Assembly: GCA_016209155.1 (NCBI GenBank)
Contig: JACQWU010000098.1
Location: 1,875-15,354, forward strand
Source of the DNA: Candidatus Desantisiibacteriota bacterium
GTDB lineage: Bacteria > JACRDZ01
DNA: 13,480 nucleotides
Direction of reading: 5' to 3'
Shown: one piece after another, positions 10,968 through 10,971 of the stretch
Layout: each line of letters begins with the position of its first letter
Position numbering within the stretch: position 1 is the first letter of the stretch
Made by a program: the position numbers and the translations under genes
Notes under the pieces: generated by a model
The model's input: the letters and a program-made list of their open reading frames with translations, nothing else
Database searches by the model: none
Told to the model about the DNA's origin: nothing

Positions 10968-10971
<4 letters not shown>

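Follow-up and report, generated by a model that had tools for sequence, protein, structure and literature searches.

GTAG REPs often provide the TAG stop codon of a gene, according to passages of Di Nocera et al. 2013 (PMC3733652), in which this codon is named opal; its correct name is amber. Nunvar et al. 2010 (PMC2817692) described REPs located very close to, or immediately after, the stop codons of RAYT genes. In E. coli, REPs lying no more than 15 nt from a stop codon stall ribosomes and lower expression, as stated in passages of another study (PMC12306157) that cites earlier work. REP-supplied TAG stops are already published for other bacteria; what is new here, in a sparsely sampled phylum, is that frames were counted, target preference was controlled for and orthologues were compared. 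A literature search for the literal GTAGGGGC, or for REPIN together with stop codon, returned nothing relevant.

The REP pair at the Uma2 gene end and other REPs of the window

The window, i.e., the whole stretch of 13,480 nt that was analysed, contains a Uma2-family gene whose TAG stop is formed by bases 2–4 of the GTAG of a REP. This observation of the first-pass annotation was confirmed by the sequence and by the 188-aa open reading frame with its Pfam match. The minus strand at 10973-10944 reads ATG TAG GGG CAG GTC TTG CAC CTG CCC TTT. The 3′ end of the gene is ...GTT ATG TAG; GTAG also provides the final base of the last sense codon, ATG. The features of this gene end are as follows:

10968..11534, minus strand: Uma2-family gene, 188 aa, stop TAG at 10970-10968 (PF05685, E 3.7e-35)
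10968..10971, minus strand: GTAG of the right-hand REP, bases 2–4 being the in-frame stop
10947..10971, minus strand: REP GTAGGGGCAGGTCTTGCACCTGCCC, right arm of the inverted pair (equal to C20:12821-12845)
10941..10946, minus strand: T6 run 3′ of the hairpin, within the spacer of the pair
10897..10921, plus strand: partner REP GTAGGGGCAGGTCTTGCGCCTGCCC, in inverted orientation
10897..10971, no strand: GTAG-outward inverted pair, a REPIN-like dimer, between Uma2 and enolase
9554..10858, minus strand: enolase gene, downstream on the same strand as Uma2, 38 nt from the pair

A near-identical copy of the inverted pair was found on another contig (G000:C220:9232-9307). The Uma2 REP is a real dispersed repeat: the exact pattern GTAGGGGC..GCCC had 97 matches in the window's own genome (G000), compared with 3 for the reversed-pattern control. 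A second, looser REP pattern had 62 exact-pattern matches in the same genome and 30 for its reversed-pattern control. GTAG was the most enriched tetranucleotide before hairpins in each of three genomes (30x, 19x and 21x, sizes that are inflated by the choice of REP-bearing contigs). The element is a multi-copy short palindrome with an unpaired GTAG beside the stem, as is characteristic of GTAG-tagged REPs, and its two REPs, placed in inverted orientation around a short spacer with GTAG outward, have the structure of a REPIN. The inverted pairs found in the three genomes carried GTAG outward in 32 cases and inward in none. As GTAG is outermost in all of these pairs, it is the part that a gene reaches first, whichever side it comes from.

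The predicted product of a RAYT-like gene (L125:177-716) matched NF047646 with an E value of 9e-13 and 48 bits, which is below the family cut-off of 80. REPs of the second type are located at the 3′ end of this gene and upstream of it, at C257:19-41. This gene, too, has a REP-supplied TAG as its stop codon.

The first-pass annotation had also stated that an unrelated gene of the window takes its stop codon from a REP, and the end of this open reading frame at 6432-6434 does coincide with a tandem REP. The gene ends with ...AAG TAG, and its TAG comes from the first of three tandem GTAGAGACGC REPs:

6432..6851, minus strand: 139-aa gene with REP-supplied TAG (6434-6432), no Pfam or NCBIfam match
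6413..6435, minus strand: first of the three tandem REPs, GTAGAGACGCAATGCCTTGCGTC
6378..6400, minus strand: second tandem REP
6343..6365, minus strand: third tandem REP, GTAGCGACGCAACATTTTGCGTC
12721..12801, no strand: another inverted pair, with no stop codon fused to it

Three same-phylum genomes contained no homologue of the 139-aa protein with which its C-terminus could be compared. A TTG-start open reading frame (start 6419; window 5070-6419) runs in frame across two of the tandem REPs into a PQQ-repeat gene; the ATG at 6320 is probably the real start of that gene, and the TTG at 6419 an annotation trap. Elsewhere in the window, a polysaccharide-biosynthesis, nucleotide-sugar epimerase-like gene (6857-8612) appears to be split into the open reading frames 7521-8612 and 6857-7495. 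A 67-nt direct repeat, 85% identical between its copies (11628-11694 and 12641-12707), is located upstream of two minus-strand genes and includes the promoter-like hexamers TTGACA..TACATT. A strong terminator-like hairpin of 16 pairs with a T run (12809-12844) lies between the gene 12863-13243 and the inverted pair at 12721-12801.

The reading frame of GTAG at gene ends

The phase of GTAG was counted in 78 REP-bearing contigs of G000 (819 kb) and in stretches of two genomes of the same phylum, G003 (713 kb) and G001 (313 kb, most of its second half being left out). The sample amounted to 1.85 Mb with 321 GTAG ends from parts of three genomes. Genes were called with a hexamer model and were not curated, and distances were measured between all GTAGs and the gene ends on the same strand. 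A 50-kb stretch of E. coli K-12, intended as an outside replicate, was underpowered and was left out.

The numbers of GTAG ends were 192, 87 and 42 in G000, G003 and G001, respectively. TAG was common to the REP and the gene stop in 13, 4 and 4 cases, and a REP was read through within 150 nt of the gene end in two, three and one genes. When the phases at gene 3′ ends were pooled, 21 REPs were in the TAG frame, six in the GTA frame (GTA GGG GCx) and none in the AGG frame (xGT AGG). The proposal that REP TAGs act as in-frame stops of same-strand genes more often than one time in three was therefore borne out in these parts of three genomes (21/27 against the expected third, p = 2.9e-6). The excess is mostly carried by G000, the sole genome in which it is clearly significant (p = 3e-5, compared with 0.045 in G001 and 0.17 in G003). 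It persisted when only exact-pattern REPs were counted (18/25, p = 9e-5) and was weaker when the limit for read-through was extended to 400 nt (21/32, p = 2e-4). The flanks of all 21 shared-stop cases were mutually unrelated, and REPs supplied 13 of the 119 TAG stops in the REP-bearing contigs of G000.

These REPs have a target preference. T was found at position -1 in 81–83% of the copies of GTAGGGGC-type REPs in two genomes, with A/T-rich bases before it. A weight matrix of the target site built from intergenic copies predicts that 31–35% of insertions in the last codons fall in the TAG frame. Even with 35% as the expectation, the excess of the TAG frame had a p value of 8e-6. Target-site bias was rejected as its cause, the predicted share being too low. 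REPs read through inside same-strand genes of the G000, G001 and G003 stretches were in the GTA GGG GCx frame in 21 cases and in the xGT AGG GGC frame in four; the target preference predicts about 60:40 for these two frames (p about 0.01).

From 0 to 20 nt past gene ends, the mean was 2.6 REPs per position, compared with 13 shared stops in G000 plus eight in the stretches of two relatives, a number beyond chance. At this intergenic density, 21 shared stops correspond to about eight in-phase codons; therefore, stop-codon targeting is not needed to account for their number. Direct repeats indicating target duplication showed no clear excess around REPs in comparison with random sites, one glycosyltransferase gene (L122) being the exception.

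C-termini of the genes with a shared stop

The full-length Uma2 homologues with at least 45% identity, as well as the genome's own Uma2 paralogue, all extend 3–7 residues past the window protein, with VF or IF as a motif close to the end in most of them. These longer homologues lack the repeat, and the C-terminus of the window protein has thus been shortened, which the first-pass annotation had proposed to check. Beyond the pair, the lost codons could not be recognised, so that a clean insertion is not evident at this gene.

In G001, where the enolase gene carries a REP, it ends with ...AATTTAAAGTAGGGGCTTATGATTGCCCCTGCATAAAGG, and in G003, where it is REP-free and 85% identical, it ends with ...AATTTGAAATAAATG; the final Lys is the same. 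The G of the REP restores the Lys codon in G001 and TAG replaces TAA, so that the alignment is what a clean insertion between AA and ATAA would give, the protein length being unchanged. Cas1c with a shared stop matched its family model to the last position, i.e., the C-terminal change was about 0. In this type I-C Cas1 gene (L097:6344-7375), the REP-supplied TAG stands directly ahead of the next open reading frame. Just past the REP, the 3′ end of the L122 glycosyltransferase gene is present a second time, complete with an ATT TAG of its own, and the two ends are equal in length. This duplication on both sides of the REP (L122:5075-5190, G000:C241; GAAACCGAAAAGATATATCAYAAAGTAATACAT) is not general for the REPs studied here.

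HsdS and the TrmA-like and CAAX-protease-like proteins with a shared stop differed from their homologues by one or two residues. The KDO transferase and the YgjP-like protein were four to seven residues shorter than their homologues, which are more distant. As far as these alignments go, shortening is not general among the shared-stop genes, the enolase, Cas1c and the glycosyltransferase being unchanged or nearly so.

Origin and possible roles of the shared stops

The first-pass annotation had assigned to the repeat both the translation stop and the transcription stop of Uma2. A scan found a 10-pair hairpin and TTTTTTGATTTT directly after the Uma2 stop, a terminator-like arrangement whose local fold was computed at about -16 kcal/mol. 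The GC-rich hairpin with a U run that is typical of intrinsic terminators was present at Uma2 and absent at 6432, where no T run follows the REP hairpin. Thus, the double role would fit the sequence at Uma2, where termination at the hairpin is possible, but it does not extend to the second gene. Terminator-like sites were no commoner in the window than in its shuffled versions (8 vs. 7.2). With a T run defined as 5 or more T in 8, one was found 3′ of four of the 21 shared-stop REPs and of 57 of all 272 GTAG hairpins, i.e., without enrichment. Judged by these motifs, a terminator role is not a general property of shared-stop REPs. For the whole Uma2 pair, the predicted fold is a single long hairpin (-57 kcal/mol, z -11) whose loop contains the T run. 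Several other inverted pairs have a T-rich spacer like this one.

We consider it probable, at about 0.8, that REPs came to lie at AT-rich sites by ordinary insertion and that the two read-through frames were lost afterwards. The Uma2 element would be a GTAG-tagged REP pair, belonging to the non-autonomous repeats whose movement is attributed to REP-associated tyrosine transposases (RAYTs), which presumably transposed this pair too. It would have entered the gene at an AT-rich site within the last Uma2 codons, about five codons before the ancestral stop, where the in-frame TAG of GTAG replaced the native stop at the cost of a few C-terminal residues. As the TAG is in frame and only a few residues are lost, the insertion was probably tolerated. 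After an insertion in either of the other two frames, translation would continue across the hairpin into additional sequence; such frames are mostly missing at gene ends, and we infer that selection removed them. The hairpin starts at the base after UAG, inside the 15-nt distance reported for ribosome stalling at E. coli REPs, and by analogy stop-fused hairpins may stall ribosomes and affect expression. Intrinsic termination is another possible effect at Uma2, through the T run that lies between the two REPs of the pair.

The shared TAG could instead reflect the choice of target rather than later filtering, if the repeat machinery preferred to insert at or next to existing stop codons. The native and REP stops do coincide within a residue or two in the enolase, Cas1c, glycosyltransferase and HsdS genes. 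However, the measured preference is for a short AT-rich motif without an excess at TAG-phase positions, and the only hot spot close to the end, behind the T of the stop codon, would place GTAG in the AGG frame, of which no case was observed at gene ends. The spread of REPs over 0–20 nt past stops and the cut in Uma2 about five codons before the ancestral end also speak against such targeting, which we regard as unlikely. A selected gene-end module, whose copies are kept because one element brings both a stop codon and a transcription terminator, would suit the 10-pair hairpin and TTTTTT at Uma2, the recurrent T-rich spacer and the share of TAG stops that REPs supply in G000. Against this, T runs are not enriched at shared stops and are missing at 6432, tolerated insertion at intergenic density explains the number of shared stops, and refolding of the pair into a single long hairpin can conceal the T run; we find this explanation quite improbable.

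Chance or faulty gene calling would be in keeping with the few of the 21 cases that are short open reading frames or have weak coding scores, and with G003, which is not significant by itself. Yet Uma2, the enolase, Cas1c, the fumarase and the KDO transferase clearly belong to their families, open frames counted in G000 independently of the gene calls agree at gene ends, and the pooled test speaks against chance, so that this explanation is hardly credible. It is also conceivable, though very doubtful, that selection acting on the repeat itself preserves the TAG within GTAG, as a safe stop built into the element. If so, it would make one third of 3′-end insertions harmless to the host gene and would help to explain the conservation of GTAG and its outermost place in inverted pairs.

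On the preferred reading of ordinary insertion followed by the loss of two frames, these gene ends are a measured case of small mobile repeats settling next to genes, in which the reading frame appears to decide which copies survive. The enolase, Cas1c, fumarase and KDO transferase genes, with stop codon and hairpin fused, are natural test cases for the effects of stop-proximal REPs on translation.

The Uma2 hairpin followed by T6 resembles an intrinsic terminator, whereas most shared-stop REPs of these genomes have no T run. As in the E. coli REPs near stop codons described in passages of PMC12306157, the hairpin comes directly after the stop; here, the stop codon is inside the element, at a distance of zero. 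The inverted REP pairs are shared with the REPINs or BIMEs and their RAYT transposases (PMC2817692), and the REP at the stop of the RAYT-like gene would be a further likeness, although the RAYT-like protein found here scores below the curated cut-off. The closest likeness is to the GTAG-tagged REPs of PMC3733652, with their unpaired GTAG at one end, short palindrome, inverted dimers and position after genes. The passages of that paper on which this comparison is based contain neither a phase count nor an orthologue comparison, whereas the frame excess, the target preference and the C-terminal change were measured here.
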